In this document: in pieces, positions 2,295-23,320 of the stretch
How the letters are laid out: the number at the start of each line of letters is the position of its first letter
Position numbering within the stretch: position 1 is the first letter of the stretch
NCBI RefSeq assembly: GCF_016107705.1
Contig: NZ_JAEHGC010000027.1
Span: 1-35,744 of the forward strand
Length of the DNA stretch: 35,744 bases
DNA from: Neobacillus cucumis
Lineage (GTDB): Bacteria > Bacillota > Bacilli > Bacillales_B > DSM-18226
Reading direction: 5' to 3'
The notes under the pieces: model-generated
The model's database searches: none
Told to the model about the DNA's origin: nothing
The model's input: only the letters and a program-made list of their open reading frames with translations
Position numbers and translations under genes: made by a program

Positions 2295-3051
2295 ATGATT
2301 TATTTTTTTATTTTAATTTTTTTTGCATTGGTAGTAACAAATTCTGCTTCTTTTAAAGGAAAGATTGGAGAAAAGAGGGTCAAAAACACAATTAAGAAAT
2401 TAAACCCCACACTATACGTTTCCATTCATGATCTTTACATACCAATAGAGAATGGGAAAAAAACAAGTCAAGTTGATCACCTAGTTCTTTCTCATAAAGG
2501 TATATATGTAATTGAAACAAAGAATTTATAAAGGCTGGATTACTGGGTCAGAACAAAGCCAATACTGGAATCAAACAAACTACAAAAGAAAAGATAAATT
2601 TAATAACCCTATTTGGCAAAATTACGGTCATATCCAAGCTTTAAAGAGTTATTTGGGAGATTTAGTAGAAAATGTTCCATTTTTCTCGATTATTGTTTTC
2701 GGAGATCAATCAGAATTAAAGTTTAAATCTGAATTCAAAAATGCATCTGTCATAAAAAGAAACAAGTTAATAGGGCTAATAAATGGGAGCACCAATTCAA
2801 ACATTCTTAGTCATCAACAATTAAGGAAAATCCAGCATAAAATTGAACCATTAGTAAACATATCAAATGTAGAAAAAAATAAAGTGGCTAAAAATCATCG
2901 TAGTGAAATCCGATCCACTTTATCACAAAAAAAACAAAGCATTAAGAATAATATTTGCCCCAGATGTGGCAATCCAATGGTTAAAAGGAAAGGAAAATAT
3001 GGTGAATTCAAAGGGTGCAGTAAATATCCAAAATGTAAATTCACAGCATAA
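2295..3051 (+). pseudogene. NERD-domain protein with C-terminal topoisomerase-type zinc finger, frameshifted
   Basis: The first part (2295-2531) starts with a hydrophobic N-terminal segment. It continues into a NERD domain: GKIGEKRV, an SQVDHLVLSHKGIYVIETKN block with the nuclease-like D...E.K residues, then a stop at 2529-2531. The second part continues in another frame as YKGWITGSE, the normal continuation of the NERD motif. It ends in a four-cysteine finger, CPRCGNPMVKRKG...FKGCSKYPKCKF, like the C-terminal fingers of topoisomerase I. Removing one T from the TTT at 2525-2527 restores a single protein of about 251 residues. GGAGG at 2282-2286 supports ATG 2295 as the start. The gene is disrupted, unless this is a sequencing error. 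NERD proteins are predicted nucleases, and the finger suggests nucleic-acid binding. Confidence 0.82.
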
Positions 3052-3459: not shown

Positions 3460-3663
3460 TTAAGAAGCTTTTCGTACGTTAGCTGCTTGTGCTCCACGTT
3501 GACCTTGCTCAACGTCAAAAGTAACTGATTGACCTTCTTCTAATGTTTTATACCCTTCGCCTTGGATAGCTGAGAAATGAACGAATACGTCTTCTCCACC
3601 TTCACGTTCGATGAATCCGAAGCCTTTTTCGCCGTTAAACCATTTTACTTTACCTTTTTCCAT
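3460..3663 (-). CDS. cold-shock protein (CspB/CspA family), copy 1
   Basis: A 67-residue single cold-shock domain: a five-strand OB-fold that binds single-stranded RNA and DNA and acts as an RNA chaperone after cold shock and in stationary phase. RNP1 (KGFGFIER) and RNP2 (VFVHFSAI) are intact, and length is normal. The sequence is nearly identical to the second copy at 4063-4263, differing mainly near QSVTF/QEVTF, GQRGAQ/GNRGPQ and one extra C-terminal Ser. AGGAGG lies upstream of the ATG, and a long conserved leader precedes it. Downstream, a weak hairpin (ATAAGAAT at 3430-3437 with ATTCTTAT at 3448-3455) may end transcription. Confidence 0.96.
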
Positions 3664-4062: not shown

Positions 4063-4263
4063 TTAAGCTTTACGAACATTAGCTGCTTGTGGTCCACGGT
4101 TTCCTTGTTCAACGTCAAAAGTCACTTCTTGACCTTCTTCTAATGATTTGTAGCCTTCGCCTTGGATTGCTGAGAAATGGACGAATACGTCTTCTCCACC
4201 TTCACGTTCGATGAATCCGAAGCCCTTTTCGCCATTAAACCATTTTACCTTACCTTTTTCCAT
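4063..4263 (-). CDS. cold-shock protein (CspB/CspA family), copy 2
   Basis: A 66-residue cold-shock domain protein with intact RNP1 (KGFGFIER) and RNP2 (VFVHFSAI). The first 39 residues are identical to copy 1; differences lie in the last third. It acts as a single-strand nucleic-acid binding RNA chaperone. It is about 400 bases upstream of copy 1, on the same strand but with its own promoter, leader and terminator, so the two are separate units. AGGAGG precedes the ATG. Conservation extends well into the leader, pointing to a recent tandem duplication or gene conversion covering both control region and gene. Confidence 0.96.
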
Positions 4264-5857: not shown

Positions 5858-7678
5858 CTAGTTAAGCGGTCTGCCAAAAGCAGCAATAACATCATCTCCA
5901 CTTAAATTGGAAATTGGTTTTAACATCGCTGTGCTGATAAGATCTATTAAGGACTTAGCACGTTTAATGAAATAATCATCAAAATTATTCGTATGTAAAT
6001 CTTGAACATCAATCATATGTGATGCTACATAGCTATCAAGATTTACACTATCTACATGATTATTTACTTTAATTCTCTTCAAATATTCACTTGGTGCATT
6101 TCCTCCAATTATTCGGTTTGTCCTAGCAAATAAGGGAGTTTTGTTTATAATGGAATTCCATTTTGTTTTATTGATATTTATCGATTCACAATATGCACGT
6201 GGGAAAATATGGTGAATGTCTGTATTTTCATCCAAGAAAACAGTAAAATCCATTGGGCTTCCACTTATAAAATCTAAGCATCCCGCTTTTAATATTAATG
6301 CCATTACTCCTTTATACGCAGCACTCAACCGTGATTGAAGTGTTAATAATCTTGTCGGCTGGAAATACGCTCTCTGAACGGTATCTGGCTCGCTCCCTCC
6401 GTTAATCCATTCCATCATTCCCCCAACATCGTTTGCATATCTTGTTTCATTCGCTCCACCGTACATTTCACCAAACACACCACACCAATACCATGAAGAA
6501 ATTTTCCCTTTGATAATGCTGTCTTGTGTTTTCGACTTTAAGATTGTGAATATTACTGCCATAGGAATTAACTGCGTACTATATGGTAAGTCTCTCGCGG
6601 AGAAAATCCGTTGTTCTTTTAAAAAACTAGCTGCTTGAATAAATCCTTCAGTTAGCTCATCAGCATATTGTTTATATTTTGATAAGGTAAGTTTTAATAC
6701 ATCTCGCTTTTTACAGCTAATTGCTTCCCCACCGTTGATTTTTATATAGTATCTGTCTAATAAAGTAATTGCAGTTAAAAAATCCGTTGATGAGACAACA
6801 GATAAAATAGCTTCTTTCTGGTTTGAAAAAGATAAAGCGGATTTCTCAATTAAATTTTTATATCTTCTTTCCCAATCTTTTCGTAGCTCAAAATTATCAG
6901 CTGCAAAGGTAGCTGTGATTAATTCAAATACAGTTAATGAAACTCCACCCGTATTAACATTTTCAAATACCTGGCAGACAGCTTCCTTAGGGGTATCTTT
7001 ATTCAATGAAATCACTGGAACTTTAAAGCTTTGAATAGGAACCAAAACCTCAGCAAAAAACTGAGCGTATTTTTGCAATATTACTGGGTCGTAATTATAG
7101 TATTTTTGGTAATCATTCATCCACATTTGACTTGCAATCGGATCAAAAACAATATTTAAAGGGAACATATGATTTGCACATTCTTGATCCCTTGTACTTA
7201 AATCAAGTTCTACATCTCTTCCAAAATTCGAACGAACGATTTTATCTTCAGGTACTGAGATAATTGCATCCACTCGATCAATTGTACTATTCAAACTGTG
7301 TTCTATATCTAAATAGTAGAATCTTTTGATTTCCTTATTCTTATCCGTTTTAGTCAATACGGCTTGTTTCGAAAACATGGCGTTGAAAATTGAAGTCATT
7401 CTTTGTTGACCATCAAGAACTAAAATCTCAGGGGCAGTTGAAGCTGTTGCACCAGTAAATGGGCGATATTTAAAGAGAATATTTCCCCCTTCGCTGTATT
7501 CCAAAAACATTAATGCTCCAACTGGATAAGAGTTAGATATACTGGCAATTAAAGCTTTAATTCGATTGTCATCCCAAACCCAACCACGTTGAAAATCTGG
7601 CAACTGAATTTTCCCCTGCTCTATTTCACGCAAAATTTCAGACACTGGTGTATCATTTGATTTAAACGTACTTCCCAT
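5858..7678 (-). CDS. DUF262 + HNH protein, GmrSD-like (type IV restriction type)
   Basis: A 606-residue single-chain protein. The N-terminal DUF262 (ParB/Srx-like) domain has LPDFQRGWVW at about 26-35 and the diagnostic DGQQR at 89-93, with FENVNTGG near 238. The C-terminal part has an HNH/DUF1524-type motif, DIHHIFPRAY at about 487-496, followed by Asn-rich N.I.GG (521-526). GmrS and GmrD together cut DNA carrying modified (glucosylated hydroxymethyl) cytosine; in fused proteins DUF262 uses NTP to drive the HNH nuclease. Substrate here is unknown. A GGGGGGA ribosome site precedes ATG 7678. It is transcribed alone, toward the debris at 3-5 kb, and lies directly downstream of the PLD-helicase unit on the same strand. 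A defence role is inferred from family and context. Confidence 0.82.
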   Translation of the reverse strand: MGSTFKSNDTPVSEILREIEQGKIQLPDFQRGWVWDDNRIKALIASISNSYPVGALMFLEYSEGGNILFKYRPFTGATASTAPEILVLDGQQRMTSIFNAMFSKQAVLTKTDKNKEIKRFYYLDIEHSLNSTIDRVDAIISVPEDKIVRSNFGRDVELDLSTRDQECANHMFPLNIVFDPIASQMWMNDYQKYYNYDPVILQKYAQFFAEVLVPIQSFKVPVISLNKDTPKEAVCQVFENVNTGGVSLTVFELITATFAADNFELRKDWERRYKNLIEKSALSFSNQKEAILSVVSSTDFLTAITLLDRYYIKINGGEAISCKKRDVLKLTLSKYKQYADELTEGFIQAASFLKEQRIFSARDLPYSTQLIPMAVIFTILKSKTQDSIIKGKISSWYWCGVFGEMYGGANETRYANDVGGMMEWINGGSEPDTVQRAYFQPTRLLTLQSRLSAAYKGVMALILKAGCLDFISGSPMDFTVFLDENTDIHHIFPRAYCESININKTKWNSIINKTPLFARTNRIIGGNAPSEYLKRIKVNNHVDSVNLDSYVASHMIDVQDLHTNNFDDYFIKRAKSLIDLISTAMLKPISNLSGDDVIAAFGRPLN

Positions 7679-8108: not shown

Positions 8109-8138
8109 TAAAAAAGACCCATACCTTTAATGGGTCTG
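8109..8138 (-). terminator. terminator of the MazG-like/PLD-helicase operon
   Basis: On the minus strand, AGACCCAT and ATGGGTCT form an eight-base stem around TAAAGGT, followed by TTTTTTA. The left arm overlaps the helicase stop codon at 8127-8129. Confidence 0.85.
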
Positions 8139-10553
8139 GGAATTTGCCTTCCTCTCAAAATGATAATGAAGGCGATATTCACAAATTTCTTTTGTCAAAA
8201 GATAAAGTATTTCCTGGTCCTCTTCGACAACATCAAAATTTAATATAAATTGGTCATTTTCATAATATATTAACCCCTTCGAACTGCCGCTCCATTTCGT
8301 CATCGGCATCGTGGCAATCAATTTGCAGATACCTTTTTCATCGTAAACCCAGAGTTTCTGTGCACCCTTATCGGAAAAATCTATCCGTTTCCTGTGCTCC
8401 TTCTCCATAAGGTAATGATGAAAAAATGGTGCAACCTCCTTAGAACTAATAGGTTTATACCAATCTGAAAGACCTCTCTCCAACATCCCGAGCAGAACAA
8501 CCATTTTATAACTCTTAGCCATTCCGGTTTTTTCAGCCTCAACAAGCCAGTTTCCATAACGGTTAAAGACCTCAGTCTCCCGTTCTGTTAATTCTTCCGC
8601 CCAGTGTAAAAATCCAACATAGGAGTTAAACTCTTGCCGATATTGTGACGAGTCGGAAGCTCCCTTTAGATGTAATTCCAAATACGTTGGTCTTCTCCCG
8701 AATTCACGCTTTAAATCAAAATAATCATTCAGCAGCTTTTCTCTTCTTGGCTGTCTTTTACGTGTCATTTCTCGAAGAAGTTCAATGACTGCCACATCTA
8801 AATCCATTTCACAAAACTCTGGCAGACTTGGCTGAATTCTACGTACCTTTCCATCATTAGGCTGGGTATCAAATAAACTCAATTTGATATCTGCATTTCG
8901 GTAATTACCAATGAGGTCGACAATTACACAGGTTTCTTTCCCAGGATGAAGGCGAAGGCCGCGGCCAATTTGCTGTGTAAAAACAGTCAATGATTCGGTC
9001 GGGCGAACAAATAATAATGTATCAACCGACGGGATATCGACACCTTCATTAAACAAATCAACCGTAAAAATCACATCGAGGTCACCTCTAGAAAGCTGCT
9101 GGATAGCCTCTTTTCTTCCAACATGAATCTGTTGAGAGTGTAAACTAACCGTCCGATAACCATTCTGATTAAAATAATCAGATAAAAAATTAGCCTGTTT
9201 GATAGATGAACAGAATCCTATAGTACGGGTTTGCTTTTTATCTTTCCATGCCAGAAGGATCTTTTCTGCATTGTCATCTTTCAATTGAGCCTGGAGTAGT
9301 TCTTCTTCATCATATCGATTTCCCAGCCAAGTAATTTGACTATAATCCGTATCATCATAGACACCAAAATACTTAAACGGAGATAGCCATTTTCGCTGAA
9401 TTGCCTCTAAAAAGTCGAGTCGAAAAGCAACGTTACCATTACAAATTGCGTAAACGTCCTTATTATCATTTCGGTCTGGGGTAGCCGTAATACCGAGTAA
9501 AAAGCTTGGTTGGAAATATTCTAGTGCCCTTTTATAAGAATCAGCTGCAGCATGATGAAATTCATCGACAATAATAAGATCAAATTCATCCGGACGAAAT
9601 TGCTCAAAATGGACTTTCATGCTCAGTGTATAAATAGAAGCAATGATGATATCCGCTTGCCCTTCTTTTTCTTTACCGTTATATACACCAAAGCTTTTAT
9701 TCGGCATAATCCTTTGAAAGGAATCTCTAGCTTGATGTAATATCTCTTCCCTATGAGCAACAAAGAGGACCCGGTTAAAGTTTTTTGCAAAAAATCCTGC
9801 CAAATAGGTTTTTCCTAATCCTGTTGCCATTACAACTAGTGCACTGTTGTAATCTTCTTCTAGCGTTCTATTTAATTCCTCTAATGCTTCTACTTGTGCA
9901 AATCGTGGTTTGATTTCACCATATTCAATGGGTGTTTCTTTTATCATTTCTTGAAAAGAAGGTTCATCCTTTTGAGTGGGCAGCATTAAATCTAATTCTT
10001 CCATTTTCGACCATGTTTTTGCCAAGTTTGGATTTTTCTTATGATACTCTTCGTATTTCTCTTTATAGTCCTTCAATGTCTCCTTATTTAAAGAGATGGT
10101 TTGATCTGCATAGAAGGCATTTAGAAACTGGTCAAGCGCCTCAGCAAAAACTTTCTGATCATTGCTGACGGAAAGATTCCATTCAACCCCCTGGTTAAGT
10201 GCAGATCTTGATAAATTGGAAGACCCAATAAAAAGGCATTCCTGTTCCTTGTCTTGAAATAGATAGGCCTTCGGGTGAAACGATATACCGTTACTCTTCC
10301 ATAGACGAATTTGGATTCGATCATCAATAGCAAGTAGGGCCTCTAGCCCTTCAGGTTGAGTTACAAATAAATAATCACCTGTACATATTTTTATATCTGC
10401 TCCTCTTTCTGCTGCAGTCTTAAGTGCATTCTTTAAATAGTCCACACCCGACTTCATTACAAAGGCGGTTAATATACAAATAGAAGAAGCCTTCTCTATT
10501 TGAACTAACAGATGCTTCCCTAATTCTTTGGTGATTAATTCAACCTTACTCAT
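8127..10553 (-). CDS. PLD-domain superfamily 2 helicase (DEAD/DEAH type, DUF3427-like C-terminus), shorter paralogue
   Basis: 808 residues from the ATG at 10553 (GAGG 6 bases upstream); a TTG 12 bases earlier is an alternative. Order: a PLD-like nuclease domain with HPKAYLF (H93, K95) and GSSNLS (110-115); a linker; helicase motif I ATGLGKT (243-249), motif II DEFHH (330-334), motif III ITATPDR (355-361), motif VI QQIGRGLR (527-534). The C-terminus beyond about 550 has DUF3427-like features (NDYFDLKREFGRRPTYLELH). There is a single HxK half-site, so a complete PLD active site would need a dimer. The start overlaps the MazG-like gene by 8 bases, so translation is coupled. It is probably an ATP-driven nucleic-acid translocase with a nuclease, likely in defence. 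It is clearly related to the 937-residue protein at 11440. Confidence 0.85.
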   Translation of the reverse strand: MSKVELITKELGKHLLVQIEKASSICILTAFVMKSGVDYLKNALKTAAERGADIKICTGDYLFVTQPEGLEALLAIDDRIQIRLWKSNGISFHPKAYLFQDKEQECLFIGSSNLSRSALNQGVEWNLSVSNDQKVFAEALDQFLNAFYADQTISLNKETLKDYKEKYEEYHKKNPNLAKTWSKMEELDLMLPTQKDEPSFQEMIKETPIEYGEIKPRFAQVEALEELNRTLEEDYNSALVVMATGLGKTYLAGFFAKNFNRVLFVAHREEILHQARDSFQRIMPNKSFGVYNGKEKEGQADIIIASIYTLSMKVHFEQFRPDEFDLIIVDEFHHAAADSYKRALEYFQPSFLLGITATPDRNDNKDVYAICNGNVAFRLDFLEAIQRKWLSPFKYFGVYDDTDYSQITWLGNRYDEEELLQAQLKDDNAEKILLAWKDKKQTRTIGFCSSIKQANFLSDYFNQNGYRTVSLHSQQIHVGRKEAIQQLSRGDLDVIFTVDLFNEGVDIPSVDTLLFVRPTESLTVFTQQIGRGLRLHPGKETCVIVDLIGNYRNADIKLSLFDTQPNDGKVRRIQPSLPEFCEMDLDVAVIELLREMTRKRQPRREKLLNDYFDLKREFGRRPTYLELHLKGASDSSQYRQEFNSYVGFLHWAEELTERETEVFNRYGNWLVEAEKTGMAKSYKMVVLLGMLERGLSDWYKPISSKEVAPFFHHYLMEKEHRKRIDFSDKGAQKLWVYDEKGICKLIATMPMTKWSGSSKGLIYYENDQFILNFDVVEEDQEILYLLTKEICEYRLHYHFERKANSQTH

Positions 10554-10872
10554 CTTCAACCTCAATCAAAAAGATTTTTTCTTTAAACCCTCCTCTTTTC
10601 TCTGCCTTCTTTTGGCGGACTTCTTCGATTATTTCAATAGATGCACCGTGATATTCAGCAAGAGCATGGATAATTTCCAATAGGTCGGCAAGTTCTTCTA
10701 TTGCATCCTCATTGTTTTCAGTATTCATGTATTCTTCAAGTTCTTCAAAACTTTTCTTGCGAAGTTCTGTTATGTATTCATCGTTATTTAATGTTTTTGT
10801 AGAAAAAGTTTTACCTGTAATTCCTATAATTCCTGGAATTCCATCTCGAACGAGTTTGTTGTAAATAGGCAT
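10546..10872 (-). CDS. MazG-like nucleotide pyrophosphohydrolase (phosphoribosyl-ATP pyrophosphatase-like)
   Basis: A 108-residue all-alpha NTP-PPase fold protein. It opens with YNKLVRDGIP, typical of the stand-alone bacterial group related to phosphoribosyl-ATP pyrophosphohydrolase (HisE-like). The metal-binding acids are present as EELEE (43-47) and EELADLLE (59-66), the E..E...E..D pattern that holds Mg. Family members hydrolyse NTP or dNTP to NMP and pyrophosphate, removing abnormal or excess nucleotides. ATG 10872 is chosen because GGAGG lies 8 bases before it; an upstream TTG is possible. The stop overlaps the next gene (PLD-helicase) by 8 bases, so the two are one operon and probably made in fixed ratio. 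The upstream region (10888-11021) is shared with the divergent Nudix gene. Confidence 0.85.
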   Translation of the reverse strand: MPIYNKLVRDGIPGIIGITGKTFSTKTLNNDEYITELRKKSFEELEEYMNTENNEDAIEELADLLEIIHALAEYHGASIEIIEEVRQKKAEKRGGFKEKIFLIEVEDE

Positions 10873-10980
10873 CAGTGGTTCCTCCAAATTAATAATGCTT
10901 TAATTATAACAAATAGGAAGCATGCTCCTAAAGATTTTTCAAAACCTTATGTATTTAACGTGAGAATCTGCACTTATTAA

Positions 10981-10989
10981 TGGTATGAT
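10981..10989 (+). promoter_or_regulatory. extended -10 promoter for the Nudix gene
   Basis: TGG-TATGAT is an extended -10 element with one mismatch to TGnTATAAT. No good -35 box precedes it. A start near 10996 gives a leader of about 26 bases, ending with GGAGG at 11011-11015. Confidence 0.5.
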
Positions 10990-11021
10990 AATTACTGAAT
11001 TAAACATATTGGAGGATAACA

Positions 11022-11420
11022 TTGAAAAAGTTAGTAAACGTAGTTGCTGCCATAATAGAAAATGAACAAAAAGAAATCTTATGTGCTCTTAGATCACTAG
11101 AAATGACTATCTCCAACATGTGGGAGTTTCCTGGTGGAAAAGTGGAAGAGAACGAGGATTTATTCACTGCTTTAGAAAGAGAAATTTATGAAGAGTTAGG
11201 TTGCAGGATTGAAACAAAGAAAGAAGTATTCAATGAGAATATTCATGAATATGAAACTTTTATCATTAATTTAATATCCATAAAGTGTAAGGTAATCGAA
11301 GGAACACCTACAAAAAGTGAGCATTCCAAATTAATATGGCTTAAAAGAGAGAATTTAGATTCGTTAAAGTGGGCACCAGCTGACATTCCCGCTGTTCAAC
11401 AATTAATCCACGAAAAATAG
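11022..11420 (+). CDS. Nudix hydrolase, (deoxy)nucleoside triphosphate pyrophosphohydrolase
   Basis: 132 residues starting at TTG 11022, six bases after GGAGG. The Nudix box is complete: G39 x5 E45 x7 REIYEELG (53-60), the GX5EX7REUXEEXGU signature that binds Mg for hydrolysis. WEFPGGK before it and WAPADIPAV near the end are typical of the MutT/CTP pyrophosphohydrolase group, which removes oxidised or unwanted (d)NTPs. It is transcribed away from the MazG-like gene across a 150-base shared control region. It is convergent with the large PLD-helicase, sharing a terminator. Being wedged between two PLD-helicases, with a second NTP pyrophosphatase next door, suggests it belongs to that system and is not plain housekeeping MutT. 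Confidence 0.88.
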   Translation: MKKLVNVVAAIIENEQKEILCALRSLEMTISNMWEFPGGKVEENEDLFTALEREIYEELGCRIETKKEVFNENIHEYETFIINLISIKCKVIEGTPTKSEHSKLIWLKRENLDSLKWAPADIPAVQQLIHEK

Positions 11421-11453
11421 TCTTCTCAAAAAGAGAAGACTATACTTTTTTTG
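11418..11453. terminator. bidirectional terminator between Nudix and PLD-helicase genes
   Basis: TAGTCTTCTC (11418-11427) pairs with GAGAAGACTA (11433-11442) around AAAAA, followed by a run of seven T's; A-rich sequence on the other side serves the minus strand. It contains the stop codons of both convergent genes (TAG 11418-11420 and CTA 11440-11442), an unusually tight arrangement. Confidence 0.85.
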
Positions 11454-14253
11454 TAAATTCTGTATATAGTGTGGATGATATTTCATGTTCAAGTTTAATT
11501 TTTATAGTAATAGGTTTTTCGCCTTCATAATCGACCGTATCACCTTTACCAATGTAAATAAAAGGTTCATTTTTCCCATCGATTTCCCTGTACTTTCTAA
11601 CAAACAAATGAAGGTTGATCCCTCTTTGCTTATTAAAAATAATGTTTTTTCCTCTCTCGGAATTTTGCGTCGTGCTGTTTTGAGACTGCCACTGAAAATA
11701 TCGTTCGTTGATAAATTTATCCTTGTAATTAATGCTTTCTTTAACGTCTTCTTCTTTATGTAAATCAATAAACAAGAAATATTCATTCCCATTTGCTAAC
11801 AGTCCCGATCCCCTAAATGAACTATGGATTTTACGATAGTTGGAGAGTAAAGCAGCATCCATCATTTGATATTGATGATAAAGCTTAAAGTGTGGAACAC
11901 CATAATATTCCCCTTTAAATTCTTTTACATAACGAAAAGTTCCGTAAGTAATAATATCTTCAATATATTTTCTACATATCTTATCAGATAATAGTTTACT
12001 AAAAATCGACCTTTTTACTAATTTACCATCTTCATAATTAAATAATTTCAGTTTGGTTTTCAACTGACCGCTATCATAATAATTCTGATTAAGGCACTCA
12101 AAAGCATGTAAAATACTATCATCATCAACATTGGTTATCATCTTTAAAATTTGATGTTTTGCAATTTCAAGATTAATTTCATCGTGATCAAGTAAATAAC
12201 GGATAATTACAAACTCATAAACCCTTAAAAGTGGCAGCATACTTGATAATTCTTTTAGAGCCCTTTCAAATGTATCATTTAATAAAAGTTCCTTTAAATT
12301 TTCATCTTTTTCTAATTTGGCAATGAATTGTAAATACGTTTTTTCACGATCAATAAATTTAACAGGATCAGGTGCACCATCATATTTAAGAAAGTCTAAT
12401 AAGAAATAAGGAATTCGTCCCTGATTTAGCTTTTTAAACTCAAAATATTCTTCTTTTAGATACTTCATTGAATTAAAGTTTTCCTTATCAATTTGAGCTA
12501 GGATCCTTTCTTGAGATATCTTATCCATTTGGATGTGAGTACAGCCAGGAATATTTGCAAAATCAGTCGCAACAGCAACCTTTAAGCTTTCTTTATCATA
12601 AAAACGACTTCCATTAAGAGCAAGTGCAATAAGAAAAGTTTTATTATGATTTCCAATAAAATCAAGGACTGTTAAGAATGTTTTATCCCCGTGCTTACGC
12701 AACCCTCTACCTAGTTGCTGTATAAACACAATCGGAGAATTGGTTGGCCTCAACATTAATACCGTATTAATGGAAGGTATATCGATACCTTCATTAAAGA
12801 TATCAACAGTAAATATAAATTGTAGTTCATCATTGTCGCTTTCTAATTTACGAATATATTTCTCCCTATTTTCTGGGGAGTCACCTCCGTGTAAACAAAC
12901 ACTTTGATATCCTCTTTTTGTAAATTCACTCGCCATATATTGAGCATGATCAATGCTAGCGCAGAATCCAAGTCCCTTTCTTTTGTCACCGTCATGTCCA
13001 TAAAAGTCCATTTTCTCAATAATAAAGTCTACTCGTTCATTGACCTTTAATCTTTTTGTTATCTCAGCAATGTCATCAATACTAACATCTCTCAAATCAA
13101 TTCCTTCGAAGTCTGTGATCCCAAAGTAATGAAAAGGAATAACCAACTCATCTTCCAACGCTTCAAGTAAACGTACTTCTATAGCAACATTATTGTCAAA
13201 AAGATCAAAAACATTGTAACCGTCACTGCGCTCTGGTGTAGCAGTCATTCCTAAAGTAAATTTAGGCTCAAAATAATTTAGAATGGATTGGTACGTAGGA
13301 CTAGTTGCATGGTGAGCCTCATCTATGATCAGATAGTCGAATTCATTTTTATTAAATTCATGAAAACATTTCGAAATCGTTTGGATAGTGGAAAAAACAT
13401 AATCAACATTTTTTTGTTTATGGTTACCAGTTAATAAACCAAACGTAAGTTCTTCATTTGGAAGAAGAAGTTCAAAGGTTTCTTTTGCCTTTTTTAATAT
13501 CTCCTCTCGGTGTACAATGAAAAGGAGTTTTTTTGGTTTATAACTTTTCACATCGAAGGCAGACATGTATGTTTTTCCTGTACCTGTGGCAGCTATAACG
13601 AGAGCTTTTTTCTCCCCAAAACTCCTCAATCTGTCCAAGTTCTCAGTGGCTCGTTTTTGCATTCTATTTGGGACAATATATTGTTTATTTTCATATATTA
13701 GCTGGCGATTCATTTGAAGACCTTTAAAGCTATTTAGAAACTGTTGGTATCTAGTAATAAAGCTCTCATCTGCATTTTCGCTAATGTTCCATAAGTAATC
13801 GTACTCCTTTAATACATCTTGTATGAAATCGGCATCATTCTTGGTGATTATCTCAACATTCCACTCAATGTTACTCTTAAGAGCACTTTGGGTGATATTC
13901 GATGAACCAATAATTACTTTATAGCAATCCCTGTATTCAAAAATATAGGCTTTGGTATGAAACCCTATTTCTTTATCAGTTACAAAAACCTTTAATTCAA
14001 TATTAGAAAAGTGTCTGATTTTCTCTAATGCCTTTGCATCAGTAAAATTAAGATAGGTTGATGTAATAATCTTCCCTTGAATTCCTTTTTTTTCTGCTTC
14101 TTTCAATGGATCAAGTAGTAGCTGAAGACCACTAAAATTAATAAAAGCTACACTAAAATAAAATCGTTCACATTGGTTCATCGATTTTACTAATTCTCTT
14201 AATAAATTTCCTTTATCTGAATTAACAATCAGTTTTTTTTCTACTGCTTCCAT
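11440..14253 (-). CDS. PLD-domain superfamily 2 helicase with DUF3427 C-terminus, longer paralogue
   Basis: 937 residues. PLD-like nuclease domain (about 1-150) with FHTKAYIFE (H99, K101) and GSSNITQSA (116-124). Helicase core: motif I AATGTGKT (221-228), motif II DEAHH (311-315), motif III MTATPERSDG (336-345), a FTVDIFNEGIDIPSI block and motif VI QQLGRGLR. The long C-terminal part, ending near GKGDTVDYEGEKPITIKIKL, fits DUF3427, which is usual in this helicase group. AGGAGC about 6 bases before the ATG fixes the start. It is probably an ATP-dependent translocase or remodeller coupled to a nuclease; only one HxK half-site is present, as in its paralogue at 8127-10553. It is monocistronic on the minus strand, ending head-on against the Nudix gene. 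A defence role is inferred. Confidence 0.87.
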   Translation of the reverse strand: MEAVEKKLIVNSDKGNLLRELVKSMNQCERFYFSVAFINFSGLQLLLDPLKEAEKKGIQGKIITSTYLNFTDAKALEKIRHFSNIELKVFVTDKEIGFHTKAYIFEYRDCYKVIIGSSNITQSALKSNIEWNVEIITKNDADFIQDVLKEYDYLWNISENADESFITRYQQFLNSFKGLQMNRQLIYENKQYIVPNRMQKRATENLDRLRSFGEKKALVIAATGTGKTYMSAFDVKSYKPKKLLFIVHREEILKKAKETFELLLPNEELTFGLLTGNHKQKNVDYVFSTIQTISKCFHEFNKNEFDYLIIDEAHHATSPTYQSILNYFEPKFTLGMTATPERSDGYNVFDLFDNNVAIEVRLLEALEDELVIPFHYFGITDFEGIDLRDVSIDDIAEITKRLKVNERVDFIIEKMDFYGHDGDKRKGLGFCASIDHAQYMASEFTKRGYQSVCLHGGDSPENREKYIRKLESDNDELQFIFTVDIFNEGIDIPSINTVLMLRPTNSPIVFIQQLGRGLRKHGDKTFLTVLDFIGNHNKTFLIALALNGSRFYDKESLKVAVATDFANIPGCTHIQMDKISQERILAQIDKENFNSMKYLKEEYFEFKKLNQGRIPYFLLDFLKYDGAPDPVKFIDREKTYLQFIAKLEKDENLKELLLNDTFERALKELSSMLPLLRVYEFVIIRYLLDHDEINLEIAKHQILKMITNVDDDSILHAFECLNQNYYDSGQLKTKLKLFNYEDGKLVKRSIFSKLLSDKICRKYIEDIITYGTFRYVKEFKGEYYGVPHFKLYHQYQMMDAALLSNYRKIHSSFRGSGLLANGNEYFLFIDLHKEEDVKESINYKDKFINERYFQWQSQNSTTQNSERGKNIIFNKQRGINLHLFVRKYREIDGKNEPFIYIGKGDTVDYEGEKPITIKIKLEHEISSTLYTEFTKKV

Positions 14254-14607
14254 TTGGCTGCTCCTACCTAAAAATCAAATTTCTAGTATATTTAGATACA
14301 ATTTTTATACTGTGTTCGAATGATATAATAAATTAAAGTAATAGAACTAGAAACGTTAAAGTATCCTTAACTACATTAATTCCGAATACTATTTACCTAA
14401 TTTGGTTCCAAATTGGTTAACAAAAATATTTTTTCAATATTATTTTGTTCTTTATTATCCAATATTTCACCATAGCATAAGCATTTTGTTTATGATGCAA
14501 GAACAAAAAACACCTATCTTTCATCCTAAAAATATGCAAGGATAAAACAATCCCAAAACAAAATTTGACTTGTCTAAATCTCATAGAGAAAAAATGGTAA
14601 AACCAAT
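14254..14607. other. 354-base intergenic stretch
   Basis: Very AT-rich. It should hold the promoter of the large PLD-helicase, but no box pair stands out. A 75-codon minus-strand frame here (14417-14644) is Cys/Phe-rich and overlaps the end of the next gene; I regard it as chance. No repeat or terminator seen. Confidence 0.4.
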
Positions 14608-16551
14608 TTAATAATTTTCTTTTTCCTCCGCTACAGTCCCCCAAGCTTTGATAAACTCATTTTTCTCATACACTTTACTGCTTTTTCTAAAACGTTCCTT
14701 TAAGTATTCTGCAAGCTTTAGATCTGTACAGTAGACATAACAACCCTTTTGTCCTCTTGTCATCAACGTCCGATACGTATTCCGAATAATTTCATCGGCT
14801 AGCTTATTAGCTTTTTCCGGTTCACTCTTTAACATCTTTTTCAGGCCTTTTAATGAATTATCTGTTTTTGCACGTTTGGTATAGTCAGTTACCACCTGAC
14901 CATTTTCATACCTTAAATCATCGCCTATGATGACACCCACATAATCAAACTCAAGCCCCTGACACGTATGGATGCACCCTGCTTCACTGCAAGAGTTTTC
15001 ATCAATTGCCCATGTAGCAGAACTCCCCAAATTCCAGCTCATCTTAAAATCAAATTCTAGAAGATTTATATCAAAATAATCTGGATTACTTTGGCCGACT
15101 TTATCCCAGTTCCAGCAATATCCCGCCACCACACGAGACTTGTTATTAACTTTATTTTGTTTTTCTATTTCATTTCTGAGGTCATTTGGATTATCAAATA
15201 CCCTGAAATCATATTGCCCACCAATGAAATCAGCATTTGCTGTTTCTCTAATCTGTAGAACATCATCAATCCAAGCTAAATATCCATCAGAACCATTACA
15301 ACGAAACTGTGATTCTAAATTCATTACCGTGAGATTAGCACCAAATTCCGAAGCAAATTTTTGAATGTCCCCGATACTTCCCGCATCCTTTAGAGTTACA
15401 CGCTGCCGCTCATCAATAAAAAAGATGGAAAACTTTGAGGCATGGATAATTTCCTGTGTTTGATTTTCTCCCAAGTGTGAAAACATACCCGATTTTTCAT
15501 TCAAGCGATGGGCTTCATCGACAATGAGGGCATCAAACTCATCTTGTGGTGCATCAATATAGCTTCCAGACCCCTTAAATAAATTATCAATATGCCCTTT
15601 GCGAAAATCCTGTTTTAACTTAGCTGCGTAGATATTTCTTGGGGCAGCATTTTTGGTTACATATTGACAAACCATACTTTGCTTGGTTAATTCAACTAGT
15701 AAATTTATGGCTAAAACTGATTTTCCGGTTCCTGGTCCTCCCTTTACAATCAAAACTTGTTTGGTCTTTGTACGTAATGCTTCCTTTGCAAGATAAATAG
15801 CTTGTTCGTAAACAACCTTCTGGTCATCAATCATGACAAACTCTGGGTTCCCTTTTAACATTTTTAACAATGAATCCTGCAATGATTTAGATGGTCGAAT
15901 TTTTCCTTTTTCAATTTTGTATAGATTTTCTTTATTGTCTCCATATTGTATATGTTTTTTAATAAAATCTCGAAGCTTTCCTGCTTGTCCCTTAATAAAA
16001 ACCGGTGCTTGCTCTATGTAATAGTGATAAACCTTGTCGGTCAGCTGATCTTGATCACCTTGATAGATATAATTATGTAAATACGCACATGGATATAAGT
16101 TGATATCATCATTTTGTGCGTTTTCATTGTAATCACTTATTAAGGAAGCATAAGACCATGCCTGATAGGACGGGTGTGTGGTTTCAACCAAGCCCTTATT
16201 TATGACCGTTTTAACGATAGCCTCTTTTCCCCGAATCACTTCAACAGACTTCCACTGCTTAAGCTCAACAATCACAACGGAGTTTTTTTCTTTTCGTTTT
16301 CCAGAAATTAAGAAATCAACTCGTTTGGAAGTGTAGGGAATTTTAAATTCAATCGCGATTCCAGCATCTTTTGGAATCTCGTTATCCATTAAAACACGAT
16401 ACATATATTGCATAGAATTATCCCAAGCCCGCACTTCACGCTCATTGATTCGACCAATCTTTGAGTTATAATTTCTGCAAATATTATTTACAAGGTCGTC
16501 GTCATATACATCTTTAAGAAATTCGGCCTTTGTTGCTTCATAAACAATCAC
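14608..16551 (-). CDS. DUF2075 helicase with N-terminal PD-(D/E)XK nuclease-like domain
   Basis: 647 residues. The N-terminal 125 or so residues carry a restriction-endonuclease-like pattern: E68, VDF (D79) and VELKQW (E96, K98), i.e. E...D...ExK. The helicase part has Walker A GGPGTGKS (271-278), motif II DEAH (345-348), FIDERQRV (375-382), ESQFRC and, near the end, HTCQGLEFDYVGVIIGDDL and RTLMTRGQKGCY, all typical of DUF2075/COG3410 superfamily 1-like proteins. It is likely an ATP-powered DNA or RNA unwinding nuclease. The start is GTG 16551 with a poor ribosome site; the family often begins close to this point. It is the first gene of the minus-strand run entering the helicase block. Families like this recur beside restriction and defence genes. 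Confidence 0.82.
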   Translation of the reverse strand: MIVYEATKAEFLKDVYDDDLVNNICRNYNSKIGRINEREVRAWDNSMQYMYRVLMDNEIPKDAGIAIEFKIPYTSKRVDFLISGKRKEKNSVVIVELKQWKSVEVIRGKEAIVKTVINKGLVETTHPSYQAWSYASLISDYNENAQNDDINLYPCAYLHNYIYQGDQDQLTDKVYHYYIEQAPVFIKGQAGKLRDFIKKHIQYGDNKENLYKIEKGKIRPSKSLQDSLLKMLKGNPEFVMIDDQKVVYEQAIYLAKEALRTKTKQVLIVKGGPGTGKSVLAINLLVELTKQSMVCQYVTKNAAPRNIYAAKLKQDFRKGHIDNLFKGSGSYIDAPQDEFDALIVDEAHRLNEKSGMFSHLGENQTQEIIHASKFSIFFIDERQRVTLKDAGSIGDIQKFASEFGANLTVMNLESQFRCNGSDGYLAWIDDVLQIRETANADFIGGQYDFRVFDNPNDLRNEIEKQNKVNNKSRVVAGYCWNWDKVGQSNPDYFDINLLEFDFKMSWNLGSSATWAIDENSCSEAGCIHTCQGLEFDYVGVIIGDDLRYENGQVVTDYTKRAKTDNSLKGLKKMLKSEPEKANKLADEIIRNTYRTLMTRGQKGCYVYCTDLKLAEYLKERFRKSSKVYEKNEFIKAWGTVAEEKENY

Positions 16552-17767: not shown

Positions 17768-18193
17768 TCACCTCTCCCTTTTAAAATACCCCGCAATAGC
17801 AGGAAAACTCTCAATTCCCTTCTTCATATCCCGAAACGAAATCACCTCCTTGCCTCTAGTAAGCTGGAAATCTAGCGAATATTCGTGACAATTCAATGGA
17901 GTTTGATGAAACGTTTGCATATAGAATTCGATTGCTTTTTCTTCGTTTTCCGCAAAGATAAAGACAAAATCCTTCTGGTTCATCTTCAATGAGTAGATGT
18001 CCATTTTATGGATTCCCAAGTAATTATGTTGAATCAATTTCGCTACCTTCTGTTGATCTACTTGATTGAGATCTATTTTTGAAATGTCATCTTTTAACGA
18101 AATTTTCTGCTCTTCTAGTAAATAGTAGATGCAATAGGCCAAAGAGGATTCATCATAATGGAAGCAATCCTGATACAATTCTTCCACAATCAT
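17768..18193 (-). CDS. hypothetical protein of the replication module
   Basis: A 141-residue protein I do not recognise. It is soluble, mixed alpha/beta and slightly acidic, with helix-rich segments (LYQDCFHYDESSLAYCIYYL) and a central strand-rich part (MNQKDFVFIFAENEEKAIEF). There is no signal peptide or membrane helix. GAGGTG lies 7 bases before the ATG. It is the last gene of a three-gene minus-strand operon after the DnaD-like and DnaB-like genes, 54 bases past the helicase, so a role in the same replication process is likely but unproven. Confidence 0.7.
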   Translation of the reverse strand: MIVEELYQDCFHYDESSLAYCIYYLLEEQKISLKDDISKIDLNQVDQQKVAKLIQHNYLGIHKMDIYSLKMNQKDFVFIFAENEEKAIEFYMQTFHQTPLNCHEYSLDFQLTRGKEVISFRDMKKGIESFPAIAGYFKRER

Positions 18194-18247
18194 TAGGTAA
18201 CACCTCGATATAAGATTTTTTTATCCTAGGCTCCGTGTCTAATTGGA

Positions 18248-19489
18248 TTACTTTTGCTCCTCAATCTTTCCCGTATGCTCGTTGTAATTCACTGAGACGG
18301 TTCCAACTGGGCCATTTCGGTTTTTTGAGACAATGATTTCAAGGGAACGATCCTCAGATTCCTTGTCATAATAGGCTTCGCGATACAAGAACAGAATCAC
18401 ATCGGCATCCTGTTCCACACTGCCTGACTCCCGAATATCAGACATCATCGGCCGCTTATTGGCTCTTGATTCGACCGATCGATTTAACTGCGCCAAACAA
18501 ATGACGGGGCAATTAAAATCCTTCGCCATCGTTTTAAGAGATTTGGATATTTCCGTTACTTGTAAATGGGAATTCCCGCCGTAAAATTGACCAGAATGGA
18601 TAAGCGTTAAGTAATCGATAAAAAGAATCGGTTTCTTGTAAGGAAATTGATTGATCATTTTTCGCGTTTTCGCTCTCATTTGGGAAATGGTTTGTCCAGC
18701 CCCATCAAAAATTTGCATATGGGTTTCAGTAAGGTCCCCAATGACATCCGACCATTTATTCTTTTGACTAGGATTGAGCATTCTTTTCGGATCCCGCATT
18801 TTGGCACGGTTAAAGCCTCCAGTTGATGCGATTAATCGGGAGGTGATCAGCCTTTCGGGCATTTCTAAGGAAAATACGAGAGGCAAATATCCAGCCCATC
18901 CCGACATTTTTGCAAAATGAAGCATCACATCGGTTTTTCCCATCGAGGGTCTTGCCGCTAGAATCGTCACTTCCCCGTCCTGAAAACCTCCAGTCACTTC
19001 GTCCAGCTTTTTGATTCCCGTTGTGGCTGTTTTCAATGTTGGTTGATCTTCCCAGGGTGCCTCATAAATGATTGACATCGCTTGTTGTAAGGACGTGTGG
19101 TCGTCCAATTTCATTTGGTTAATCTTATCCAATTCGCCGATTACTTTCGCAATTTCCCAATCGTTCGTGGCTGCAACCGTTAAGATGTTTCTCTTTTCCC
19201 GTTCCTTCCACTGATCAAGAATGAGCTTCTCCGTACGGTCAAATTTCTCTATATCCGCAAACGATAACAGCTCCGAAAGGTAAGACATTCCACCTACAGA
19301 ATCGAGGTCAGATAAGGTGGTCAAGGAAATTAAATCAATATTCTTGCCAGCACGCTTAAACTCTACCATCCTTCGCATTAATTCTTTATGCTGTATACTT
19401 TCTAGCTGTTCAGGCTGTATCACCGTATCCTTGAGTAAGTATTCCGCCTTCATTAAGCTTCCTAAAAACACCTTCTCTGCCATACTCAT
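18248..19489 (-). CDS. DnaB-like replicative helicase
   Basis: 413 residues from ATG 19489, which shares its A with the TGA of the upstream gene (TGATG), with AGGTG 7 bases before; ATG 19483 is an alternative. A short DnaB N-terminal domain (about 1-100, including VGGMSYLSEL) precedes a RecA-like core: Walker A ARPSMGKT, FSLEMP, FIDYLTLI (Walker B), CLAQLNRSVESR.NKRPM, then SDIRESGSVEQDADVILFLY. These are hallmark DnaB/F4 hexameric 5'-3' helicase motifs. It is shorter than the usual 440-450-residue chromosomal DnaB, as in phage or element helicases. Coupling to a DnaD-like loader suggests an autonomous replication unit. Confidence 0.9.
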   Translation of the reverse strand: MSMAEKVFLGSLMKAEYLLKDTVIQPEQLESIQHKELMRRMVEFKRAGKNIDLISLTTLSDLDSVGGMSYLSELLSFADIEKFDRTEKLILDQWKEREKRNILTVAATNDWEIAKVIGELDKINQMKLDDHTSLQQAMSIIYEAPWEDQPTLKTATTGIKKLDEVTGGFQDGEVTILAARPSMGKTDVMLHFAKMSGWAGYLPLVFSLEMPERLITSRLIASTGGFNRAKMRDPKRMLNPSQKNKWSDVIGDLTETHMQIFDGAGQTISQMRAKTRKMINQFPYKKPILFIDYLTLIHSGQFYGGNSHLQVTEISKSLKTMAKDFNCPVICLAQLNRSVESRANKRPMMSDIRESGSVEQDADVILFLYREAYYDKESEDRSLEIIVSKNRNGPVGTVSVNYNEHTGKIEEQK

Positions 19490-20469
19490 CACTCTTCACC
19501 TGCCGTCAGGTCGAGTTCAAATCCTCTTGGAATATCTCTTCCGGTTGGAGATGATTCAGTTGATTTCCTATGCTTTGGTGCAGGTTTTTGCTTTTCCTGA
19601 TCGATTTCAACTTCTTCTAGGGTCAGTAAAGATTCATTTTCCCAGTTCTTCAGAATCGCAACAATATAGTTCAACTTCCGCTTGTTATTCGCACAGGCAA
19701 TATTCATTGCTTTTAAAATCATCTCTTTTGGCTGTAAAAAGCTAGAATCATCTAACCACGACAGCAACTGTTCTTTTGCATTCACGTTCGAAAAACCAAA
19801 ACCATTAGCGTCCCAAAACTCAATAATTTCTTTCACATCTTTTGATTTTTGATTCCTTTGTAAGGGATTTTCTATGTCTGGATTATTTTCTAGATTGTGA
19901 TCGAAAGCTGTTTGTTTTTCTTTTTGCCCAGGTATCGAATGACGATGCAGGAACGTTTCGTCCATTTCTTTATATTCAGTTTTGTATGTATCCTTTTCAT
20001 CTAAATCCCTATCAAAACTATCTTCTTCATACAGGTTCTCGTTAACAGCACTTTCGTTTATCTCCGAAGCTATAGAATCTATTTCTGCTTCGACGTGTTT
20101 CCTTTCATTAAGCTCTACTTCCTTCTTTTGCATATTTGGCGCTAATTCCAGTGCTTCTAACCGTTCATAATCAATGGTGTACCACTTGGTTTGATCCATT
20201 TTTGTTTTATTCCAGTTCCCTGAAAGCAAGAATCCTTGATCCGCTAGCGAGCGAAATACCCGTTTGATCGTACTAAGTGACCAAAATGAAAATTGTTCCT
20301 TCCAATAATTAAAGGTATTGTAAATCCATTTACGGCCTTCAATGATATGGGTGCTTTTATTCACCCAGTAATGTACCTGCTGCAGGACGATTGCTTCATT
20401 TAAACCAATCCTATTCGCTAATGATGGGATCACGATCATTGGATTTTCGTACACTAATAAATTACTCAT
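19489..20469 (-). CDS. DnaD-domain replication initiation/helicase loader protein
   Basis: 326 residues in three parts. An N-terminal winged-helix domain (about 1-110) has NRIGLNEAIVLQQVHYWV and a TIKRVFRSLADQGFL recognition-helix-like segment. A charged, low-complexity Glu/Asp-rich linker follows (about 115-210). The C-terminal DnaD/DnaB2-like domain has EIIEFWDANGFGFSNVNAKE, then YIVAILKNWE. This matches phage and element replisome organisers that melt an origin and load the helicase. GGGAGG supports the start. It overlaps the DnaB-like gene by one base. The N-terminal opening resembles proteins of integrated phages and plasmids more than chromosomal DnaD. Confidence 0.85.
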   Translation of the reverse strand: MSNLLVYENPMIVIPSLANRIGLNEAIVLQQVHYWVNKSTHIIEGRKWIYNTFNYWKEQFSFWSLSTIKRVFRSLADQGFLLSGNWNKTKMDQTKWYTIDYERLEALELAPNMQKKEVELNERKHVEAEIDSIASEINESAVNENLYEEDSFDRDLDEKDTYKTEYKEMDETFLHRHSIPGQKEKQTAFDHNLENNPDIENPLQRNQKSKDVKEIIEFWDANGFGFSNVNAKEQLLSWLDDSSFLQPKEMILKAMNIACANNKRKLNYIVAILKNWENESLLTLEEVEIDQEKQKPAPKHRKSTESSPTGRDIPRGFELDLTAGEE

Positions 20470-22303: not shown

Positions 22304-23320
22304 ATGAATTCTGAACATAATATTCGTCTTACTTCTGCTGAAATTGCTCAGCTTTGGACTGGATACATGAATAATAGTATGTCTAAGTGTGTATTGAAGT
22401 ATTTTAGAGAAAAGACTCAAGATGAAGAAATTCGAACAGTTATAAATTTGGCAATTTCAATAGCAGATAAGATGTTACAAAACATTACAGAAATTTATGT
22501 TAAAGAAAGTCATCCCATTCCCGTTGCTTTTAATGAAAGTGAGGATGTTAATATAAATGCACCTGCATTATATTCTGATACCTTCTTTTTGAATTTTGTT
22601 CACAATATGTCAAGACATGGCTTAACTGCATATGGTGCAGCTTTATCTGGTTGTGTACGCTCCGATGTATTAGAACTTTTTTCAAGTGCCGTAGACCTCA
22701 CTAGGGAATTATACTTTAAATCCTTAAACGTCTCATTAGAAAAAGGATTATATTCTAGGGCGGCTTATATCCCAATCCCAGAAAAAGTGGAATTTATTGA
22801 GAAACAAGGATATTTAACTGGTTGGTTTGGAGAACGTCGCCCAATCAATTCTCTCGAAATCATGCACTTTTATGAAAATATGCAAAGAAATGCGCTTGGT
22901 AAAGCGTTACTATTGGGCTTTGCTGAAGTTGCTGGATCAAAAGAAGTTCAAAATTATATGGTTAGAGGAGCAAATATCGCTAATAAAGTAGTGGAGATTA
23001 TGGCACATATTTTAGCAGAAGAAAATATATCTGAATCACCTACATATGATTCAGAAGTTCTTAAATCTACAACTCCACCATTTTCAGAAAAGTTAATGAT
23101 GTTCCAAGTAACCATGCTTACAGGAATGTCACTTGGCTATTATGGAACAGCAGTAGGTACGGTTGCTAGACGTGACTTGGGTGCAAAATTTTTACGGATA
23201 TTTCTTGAAGCAGTTCAATATGCGGAAGATGGAGCGAACATTATGATTGAACATGGTTGGATGGAAAAGCCCCCTGCATCCATTGATGAAATTGAAATCG
23301 CTAAAACCAAAAAGAAATAA
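22304..23320 (+). CDS. DUF3231 protein, copy 1
   Basis: 338 residues, all-helical, made of two related halves of about 165 residues: each begins with a 'LTSAEIA.LW' or 'P.F.E.L.M' helix, and the first contains NINAPALYSDTFFLNF. This is the DUF3231 family of Bacillaceae, thought to form four-helix, ferritin-like bundles and often linked with spores (similar in concept to CotF-type coat proteins). No metal ligands can be assigned by eye. GGAGG lies 10 bases before the ATG. A clear paralogue lies at 33681-34688, sharing motifs such as DVN.NAP.LYSDT, YGTA/GT.MA and YAEDGANIMI. It is monocistronic. Confidence 0.85.
   Translation: MNSEHNIRLTSAEIAQLWTGYMNNSMSKCVLKYFREKTQDEEIRTVINLAISIADKMLQNITEIYVKESHPIPVAFNESEDVNINAPALYSDTFFLNFVHNMSRHGLTAYGAALSGCVRSDVLELFSSAVDLTRELYFKSLNVSLEKGLYSRAAYIPIPEKVEFIEKQGYLTGWFGERRPINSLEIMHFYENMQRNALGKALLLGFAEVAGSKEVQNYMVRGANIANKVVEIMAHILAEENISESPTYDSEVLKSTTPPFSEKLMMFQVTMLTGMSLGYYGTAVGTVARRDLGAKFLRIFLEAVQYAEDGANIMIEHGWMEKPPASIDEIEIAKTKKK

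Follow-up and report, generated by a model that had tools for sequence, protein, structure and literature searches.

An 8.4-kb block of DNA from Neobacillus cucumis looks like a defence island, with each of its two nucleases accompanied by a predicted nucleotide pyrophosphohydrolase. The block lies in a low-G+C stretch of Bacillus type (assembly GCF_016107705.1, contig NZ_JAEHGC010000027.1, positions 1 to 35,744), the whole of which, 35,744 nucleotides (nt), is referred to here as the window, and six intact genes were found between 5.8 and 16.6 kb from open frames and Pfam matches. The first pair consists of a putative SauUSI-type restriction enzyme and a NudG-like Nudix hydrolase, and the second of a SauUSI-related PLD-helicase and a MazG-like protein; both pairings occur in many related genomes. 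As the best explanation, held tentatively, we propose that the hydrolases stop modified deoxynucleoside triphosphates (dNTPs) from entering host DNA and so protect cells in which the restriction enzyme lacks a methylase.

Two nuclease-hydrolase pairs in one island

The members of the two pairs are as follows (aa, amino acids; SF2, superfamily 2; NTP, nucleoside triphosphate; AF2, AlphaFold2 model).

11440..14253, minus strand: putative SauUSI-like type IV restriction enzyme, 937 aa (Pfam PLDc_2, ResIII, Helicase_C, DUF3427; PADLOC PDLC03658)
11022..11420, plus strand: NudG-like Nudix hydrolase, 132 aa, partner of the SauUSI-like gene (Pfam NUDIX; PADLOC PDC-S07)
11417..11443, no strand: predicted bidirectional terminator hairpin at the Nudix/SauUSI-like junction (11-pair stem)
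10546..10887, minus strand: predicted MazG-like all-alpha NTP pyrophosphatase, likely start 10872, 108 aa (motif; AF2 and Foldseek)
8127..10565, minus strand: SauUSI-related PLD and SF2 helicase without DUF3427, likely start 10553, 808 aa (Pfam; PADLOC PDLC03659)

An earlier reading of this DNA from its letters alone (the sequence-only reading) had placed in 8127..16551 two PLD and SF2 helicases with DUF3427-like tails, two nucleotide hydrolases and a DUF2075 helicase. All of these genes exist as intact open frames, and the two PLD and SF2 helicases are there, but a DUF3427 tail was recovered in 11440-14253 only (E 5.5e-63). In that protein, Pfam finds the PLD nuclease, the SF2 helicase and DUF3427 in one chain, and residues 5-903 align with positions 29-914 of the 953 in the PADLOC profile PDLC03658 (573 bits); the translation also shows Walker A, DEAH and a motif of HxK and GSSN. 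On these features, with a nearly full-length profile match, it is assigned to the SauUSI-type type IV restriction enzymes, and one helicase is thus of a known kind.

The second helicase, 8127-10565, has PLD and helicase parts in Pfam and a partial match to the PADLOC mREase_IV profile PDLC03659 (295 bits). Because Pfam did not find DUF3427 in it, we call it only a SauUSI-related PLD-helicase. Its AF2 model is of low overall confidence (predicted local distance difference test, pLDDT, 71.4; predicted template modelling score, pTM, 0.37), and the best Foldseek match of the model is SauUSI (7clg, E 3.3e-30) along the whole chain. A PLD-helicase in Bacillus sp. UNC438CL73TsuS30 is 91% identical to it. 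The translational coupling of this helicase to the MazG-like gene, suggested earlier, is confirmed: the likely helicase ATG (10553) and the MazG TAA (10546) overlap as ATGAGTAA.

The MazG-like protein scores 21 bits against PF12643, under the gathering score of 27. Its residues E43, E44, E47, E60 and D63 (EE..E(12)E..D) are invariant in 29 relatives and follow the pattern EExxE(12-28)ExxD, which we take to be the metal-binding motif of MazG-like all-alpha NTP pyrophosphatases. The best Foldseek match of its AF2 model (pLDDT 88.6) is E. coli MazG, with a probability of 0.99 but an E-value of 0.063. Assignment to a subfamily (RS21-C6/DCTPP1, HisE or MazG) by sequence or fold was tried and abandoned, the other comparisons being at noise level; motif and model support the class and do not separate substrate classes.

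The two hydrolases do lie between the two helicases, as had been reported, but the Nudix gene is on the opposite strand and convergent with the SauUSI-like gene, with 19 nt between the stop codons. A perfect hairpin at 11417-11443 has both stop codons within its 11-pair stem and T runs following it on both strands, and it is predicted to be a shared bidirectional terminator. In 60 convergent Nudix/SauUSI pairs from elsewhere, the longest perfect stem has a mean length of 9.6 (4.3 in shuffles), and it reaches 8 or more in 42 of the 60. PADLOC models, compared with the window proteins one protein at a time, gave single-protein matches, namely mREase_IV, PDC-S07 (159 bits for the Nudix protein) and others that were weaker or partial.

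Conservation of the pairs in related genomes

For the family sample, 193 genomes of the same family were searched with the PLD-helicase (E<=1e-60) and the loci were then fetched. At least 111 of the 193 contain a relative, which belongs either to the PLD-helicases (58% identity or more) or to the SauUSI-like class (31-44%). The SauUSI-like matches listed are 83 places in 82 genomes; G047, G075, G147 and perhaps G144 hold one more, unlisted. A helicase sequence that occurred more than once entered the counts a single time. SauUSI-like genes had to be longer than 850 aa, three of them cut by locus ends were left out, and the PLD-helicase gene count omits pieces of 600 aa or less. The class sample comprised 250 genomes, 78 of them with DUF3427, from which 40 loci were hand-picked and are thus non-random.

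In the family sample, a Nudix gene was observed within 200 nt of 55 of the 65 SauUSI-like genes (44 convergent and downstream, 11 tandem and upstream), and a MazG gene within 200 nt of six. The class sample has a Nudix gene within 250 nt in 33 of its 40 SauUSI-like loci. For both samples together, 88 of 105 SauUSI-like genes have a Nudix gene within 250 nt, at a median gap of 19 nt, and Nudix matches farther off in those loci number eight; a third arrangement, tandem and downstream, was seen in four cases. At the genome level, among the matches listed, the SauUSI-like gene and the Nudix occur together in 76 genomes, the former alone in 6, the latter alone in 40 and neither in 71 (Fisher p 8e-17, in a test that ignores relatedness), and adding the four genomes with unlisted genes changes the table to 79, 7, 37 and 70.

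The link between the Nudix and the SauUSI-like gene outlasts REARRANGEMENT, being kept through changed arrangement and swapped partners. A tree of the 105 helicases, built by a quick method that gave long-branch warnings and with the 17 partnerless genes scored as a state, has 23 arrangement changes, and its well supported branches force at least seven (upstream) and at least ten (convergent). Two loci (L109 and L111) have helicases 83% identical, with Nudix proteins 52% identical encoded on opposite sides and strands. Three others (L070, L074 and L085) have helicases 37-38% identical to that of the window, Nudix proteins 79-82% identical and the same hairpin stem sequence.

These results bear on the possibility that the hydrolases are housekeeping antimutator genes which came by chance to lie in defence islands. 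Islands shuffle genes, and stand-alone copies of the same Nudix adjoin metabolic genes, yet mere hitch-hiking is hard to reconcile with the 19-nt median gap, the shared hairpin, the MazG overlap and the repeated re-pairing of Nudix lineages with one nuclease lineage. C5-methylases, moreover, show no such pairing, as none of the 102 listed C5-methylase places lies within 1000 nt of any of 129 Nudix or 118 MazG places, each hydrolase being taken as 330 nt (a previous form of this control took 122 places and a hand-picked subset of the hydrolase lists). From the gap, the arrangement changes, the partner swaps, the hairpins and this control, hitch-hiking was judged unlikely.

For the second pair, a MazG gene lies within 100 nt of 46 of the 49 PLD-helicase genes longer than 600 aa in the family sample; the three exceptions are a gene at the end of a contig, a gene without its N-terminal part and a gene whose MazG lies 236 nt off. 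By coordinates, among the matches listed, MazG is within 500 nt at 51 of 57 PLD-helicase places, a total that counts no gene again through a second fragment and leaves out a few fragment rows (G012, G076, G151). By both pair counts the hydrolases are linked to the nucleases beyond chance, and the earlier view that these are defence-type genes looks right.

The sequence-only reading had further proposed a single helicase-MazG-Nudix-helicase-DUF2075 system, to be sought by a survey of gene order. The order helicase-MazG-Nudix-SauUSI does recur (L021, L266), and a Lactiplantibacillus plantarum plasmid (L298) carries Nudix, SauUSI-like, MazG-like and DUF2075 genes in a row. The two helicases also co-occur somewhat, 31 of 57 PLD-helicase genomes holding a listed SauUSI-like gene as well (odds ratio, OR, 1.99, p 0.04, relatedness ignored). 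However, the other 26 hold no listed SauUSI-like gene, the order is not the rule, and a DUF2075 gene is near only sometimes; a SauUSI-like gene was found within 2.5 kb at at least eight PLD-helicase loci, many loci having only about 1.5 kb of flank. Across the 193 genomes the two pairs are separable modules, so that a single system uniting the two helicases, the two hydrolases and the DUF2075 protein is most improbable, and it was rejected because the two pairs often occur apart.

The MazG family, in addition, adjoins nucleases of other kinds. In the 193 genomes it has 118 places at 90 bits or more (the 19 weakest rows, below 90 bits, were left out), of which 51 are beside a listed PLD-helicase and 67 are not; 32 of the latter, hand-picked, were fetched. 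At 25 of the 32, MazG adjoins McrBC-like (12), HNH (12) or Mrr (1) nucleases, the partner domain names being taken from representatives. The McrBC-like genes, defined by DUF2357 and PDDEXK_7 (McrC-like) or MrcB_N and AAA_5 (McrB-like), lie within 500 nt of MazG, eight of them within 300 nt and four (L156, L158, L159, L313) at about 370-470 nt by coordinates, and the one in L313 was recognised by its sequence start. At the 12 HNH places a gene of a single HNH nuclease family lies no more than 300 nt away; in L309 it is a fragment only, and in L310 a PF10117 McrC is nearby as well. The Mrr neighbour has Mrr_N and Mrr_cat, and one place each is beside an HNH_3 protein, a Schlafen group 3 helicase and a PLD-helicase remnant; no such partner was found at four of the 32 places, one of them at a contig end.

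Two features of these loci were recorded on the side. Proteins of the HNH family (L145:6360-7364 and relatives) have 330 aa, and their genes often adjoin a MazG-like gene. Beside McrBC-like genes, some MazG proteins (L157:5407-6321, L158:5464-6321, L159:5479-6321) carry an extra N-terminal region of about 170-200 aa, for which a Pfam search of the L157 protein found no match.

Nucleotide substrates and a proposed protection of host DNA

Compared with solved chains, the window Nudix scores 113.9 bits with 5x1x, 62.3 with NudG (2rrk), 60.7 with 3gwy and 41.1 with MutT (1mut), and it is 40% identical to NudG and 30% to MutT. Near the C-terminus it has Asp (PAD motif) where MutT has Asn (PAN); all but MutT of the seven aligned proteins have this Asp, which is also present in 80 of the 88 linked Nudix proteins by pattern and in four more by eye. 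The Nudix box is intact in the window protein and in 86 of the 88. The protein reaches 88.6 bits, below the NCBIfam NudG equivalog cut-off of 156, and is not filed as NudG; by sequence comparison it is nearer to NudG than to MutT. The chain 5x1x is named 'Mutator mutT protein', and its printed sequence agrees by eye with the Nudix upstream of the SauUSI-like gene in an S. aureus record, where the upstream gene is annotated as a (deoxy)nucleoside triphosphate pyrophosphohydrolase and directly adjoins what we infer to be SauUSI itself.

SauUSI cuts DNA with 5-methylcytosine (5mC or m5C) or 5-hydroxymethylcytosine (hm5C) (PMC3874153). The B. fragilis protein of 3gwy, Q5LBB1, has reported kcat/Km values, per M per s, of 4.8e6 with 5-Me-dCTP and 4.4e6 with 5-MeOH-dCTP (PMC5158307); the bases of these two nucleotides are the ones that SauUSI recognises for cutting when they stand in DNA. 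Orf135 and RS21-C6/DCTPP1 are described as specific 5-methyl-dCTP hydrolases (PMC10742078); Orf135 is a Nudix enzyme, by the title of reference 42 of that paper, and DCTPP1 is MazG-like (PMC4491611), so that these 5-methyl-dCTP hydrolases belong to the two enzyme classes paired with nucleases here.

If the SauUSI-like enzymes cut 5mC, genomes holding them should lack C5-methylases. A C5-methylase was present in 34 of the 82 genomes with a listed SauUSI-like gene, against 78 of the 111 others (OR 0.30, p 7e-5), and in 38 of 86 against 74 of 107 when the four probable additional genomes were included (OR 0.35, p 7e-4), in Fisher tests that, like the other methylase tests, ignore relatedness. No deficit was found for N6_N4_Mtase (OR 1.35; 1.18 with the four added) or strong N6_Mtase (OR 1.64; 1.51), neither being significant; the strong set consisted of 90 genomes with a best E<=1e-50, picked by eye.

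Type IV enzymes carry no methylase, and the safety of the host is usually explained just by the absence of modified bases. For a SauUSI-type enzyme, which would cut 5-methyl- and 5-hydroxymethyl-cytosine DNA with no self-marking methylase at hand, the sole protection would be a host DNA free of the modified base. Phage enzymes, or the salvage of degraded modified DNA, could make 5-methyl-dCTP or 5-hydroxymethyl-dCTP, and kinases of phages that act on 5-methyl-dCMP and 5-hydroxymethyl-dCMP have been described (PMC10742078). The Nudix would hydrolyse modified dCTPs to monophosphates before the host polymerase uses them, leaving the chromosome no target, and such a guard may matter above all in cells that survive a base-modifying phage or salvage degraded DNA. 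A pyrophosphohydrolase would then be to a type IV enzyme what a methylase is to a type II enzyme. The MazG-like enzyme would guard likewise for the PLD-helicase, McrBC-like, HNH and Mrr nucleases, and the nucleotide that it removes may be a different one, since PLD-helicase genomes do not avoid C5-methylases. With more reserve, it is possible that this is a general solution to the problem of self and non-self in modification-dependent restriction, in which the cell polices its nucleotide pool rather than marking its own DNA, and Nudix and MazG, two folds unrelated to each other, have been recruited repeatedly as guards of unrelated nucleases.

The sequence-only reading had suggested that the hydrolases remove phage-modified nucleotides, and this survives as one of two readings, protection of host DNA being preferred. 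The hydrolases would destroy the phage's modified dNTP pool while the nucleases cut phage DNA already modified, so that the phage loses either way; the linkage and substrate evidence is the same as for host protection, and the conversion of the pool to 5-hydroxymethyl-dCTP in T-even infection has been mentioned in a review as a possible object of monitoring (PMC12707154). However, removal of modified dCTP would lead to unmodified phage DNA that the type IV partner cannot cut, and the two activities would partly cancel. Because phage DNA would be spared in this way from the partner nuclease, we rank such a double attack second and regard it as doubtful.

The hydrolases might instead have nothing to do with modified cytosine and act as sensors, signal removers or dNTP depleters in abortive infection. 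A phage MazG reportedly lowers (p)ppGpp (quoted in PMC10783111), and MazG is a predicted, unvalidated defence domain in DefensePredictor (PMC13092281); but the partners found here are not signalling enzymes, they are nucleases of the restriction type with several unrelated folds, and the Nudix is NudG-like. Signalling and dNTP depletion, both raised by the sequence-only reading, drew no support from this analysis, and such roles are considered unlikely.

Several observations weigh against protection of host DNA by dedicated partners. No adjacent Nudix was found for 17 of the 105 SauUSI-like genes, although five of the ten such genes in the family sample have one farther off (the distance being 1.6-1.7 kb in L050 and L069 and, counted from the matched part, 4-11 kb in the other three), and 6 of the 82 listed SauUSI-like genomes (7 of 86 with the additions) have no Nudix at E<=1e-20. 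Conversely, the Nudix has 129 places, and 57 of these have no listed SauUSI-like gene nearby. At 20 of the 57, hand-picked and fetched, the neighbours identified include glutamine synthetase, peroxiredoxin and dihydrodipicolinate synthase; PLD or helicase genes are near in L124 and L132, and in L143, the sole such case among the 20, the Nudix is about 84 nt from a McrBC-like pair. A search of a plasmid collection gave 21 records with a match, of which 16 were opened and compared with hydrolase profiles built from Bacillus relatives. The Nudix is present in those from H. canadensis, two lactobacilli and S. aureus, and neither hydrolase was found in 12 of the 13 opened records from outside Bacilli (Fusobacterium, two Clostridia, a second Hymenobacter, two Pseudoalteromonas, Arthrobacter, Rhodobacter, Neotabrizicola, Aeromonas, Polaromonas and Spiroplasma). 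Furthermore, SauUSI is reported to be active alone when cloned in E. coli (PMC3874153). Because the clone works alone there, the Nudix is dispensable for cutting and, in E. coli, for survival. E. coli has its own NudG.

On the side of MazG, PLD-helicase genomes show no C5-methylase deficit (OR 0.73, p 0.34), and the target of the PLD-helicase is for this reason probably something other than 5mC at large. In 20 hand-picked McrC-like loci of the class sample, MazG was just upstream of McrB in four and was not found in 16. In at least one McrBC-like/MazG locus, L150, a putative C5-methylase frame lies just upstream of the McrBC-like pair, so some McrBC-like partners may be methylase-linked rather than type IV.

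Neighbouring genes and relation to known systems

Two further genes of the island flank the pairs.

14608..16551, minus strand: Schlafen group 3 (DUF2075) helicase with a long N-terminal region (PF09848, E 6e-106)
5858..7678, minus strand: DUF262/GmrSD_N protein, possible single-chain GmrSD (PF03235, E 2.4e-32)

DUF2075 is now PF09848, the Schlafen group 3 helicase of Pfam, and relatives of the window protein (28-86% identical) lie within 2.5 kb of SauUSI-like genes in L069, L071, L103, L106 and L120. In 5858-7678, GmrSD_N was matched, HNH_4 only weakly (E 0.011), and there is an HHIFP motif; a relative 73% identical adjoins the Nudix-SauUSI-MazG locus L092. The DUF262/GmrSD_N protein is a neighbour outside both pairs, and both it and the DUF2075 helicase are occasional island neighbours. 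The L. plantarum plasmid L298 (NZ_CP028230.1) is mobilizable; its Schlafen group 3 helicase has a GIY-YIG domain, and its MazG-like protein, beside SauUSI, carries an RS21-C6-like motif, the sole match in a motif scan of the loci.

Elsewhere in the window, 17768-20469 encodes a DnaB-like helicase, a DnaD-domain protein and a 141-aa protein. Relatives of these genes turn up among the PLD-helicase loci and, in L162, next to MazG-HNH, and the segment may be a mobile element or a shared integration site. A protein with NERD and a topoisomerase-type zinc ribbon (2274-3051) is apparently split into overlapping frames, 2274-2531 and 2512-3051. Two near-identical tandem genes on the minus strand (3460-3663 and 4063-4263; 66-67 aa) are cold-shock-like, a name given from their sequence, and 22304-23320 (DUF3231 by Pfam) and 33681-34688 encode related-looking proteins.

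Among known systems, SauUSI of S. aureus shares its PLD-SF2-DUF3427 domain order with 11440-14253, which matches the profile over nearly its full length. The Nudix is upstream in the S. aureus record, whereas it is downstream and convergent in the window, and SauUSI is treated as a single polypeptide in a review (PMC3874153). NudG/Orf135 and Q5LBB1 share the Nudix box with the window Nudix and are its best-scoring characterised relatives, NudG having the Asp as well; unlike the window Nudix, whose substrate is predicted, E. coli nudG does not adjoin an annotated restriction gene. RS21-C6/DCTPP1 and mycobacterial MazG, which act on modified dCTP, have the broad enzyme class in common with the window MazG, but they are not detectably close to it by sequence, and comparison of folds does not tell the subfamilies apart. 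McrBC, Mrr and HNH nucleases have the same MazG-like family alongside in related genomes, but are not present in the window.

In Streptococcus, MutT homologues beside SauUSI homologues were remarked upon in a figure legend (PMC7641849, Fig. 9). That legend gives the adjacency only, with no survey, substrate or mechanism in the parts of the paper covered, and MazG does not appear in the main text of the paper. In the parts of the literature covered, no link of Nudix or MazG to type IV restriction was found beyond this legend, and none of six hydrolase-type terms occurs in the main text of a McrBC census (PMC11090510). Thus the MutT-SauUSI adjacency had already been noticed, and what is added here is the proposed reading as type IV restriction with a nucleotide-pool partner.

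If the proposed explanation is true, self-protection of a whole restriction class would be enforced by dedicated dNTP pyrophosphohydrolases, which would be testable with two-gene constructs. The PADLOC single-gene candidate PDC-S07 is suggested to be the partner of a known enzyme. In addition, the long-known bacterial 5-methyl-dCTPases, which prefer 5-methyl- and 5-hydroxymethyl-dCTP, would acquire a natural role.

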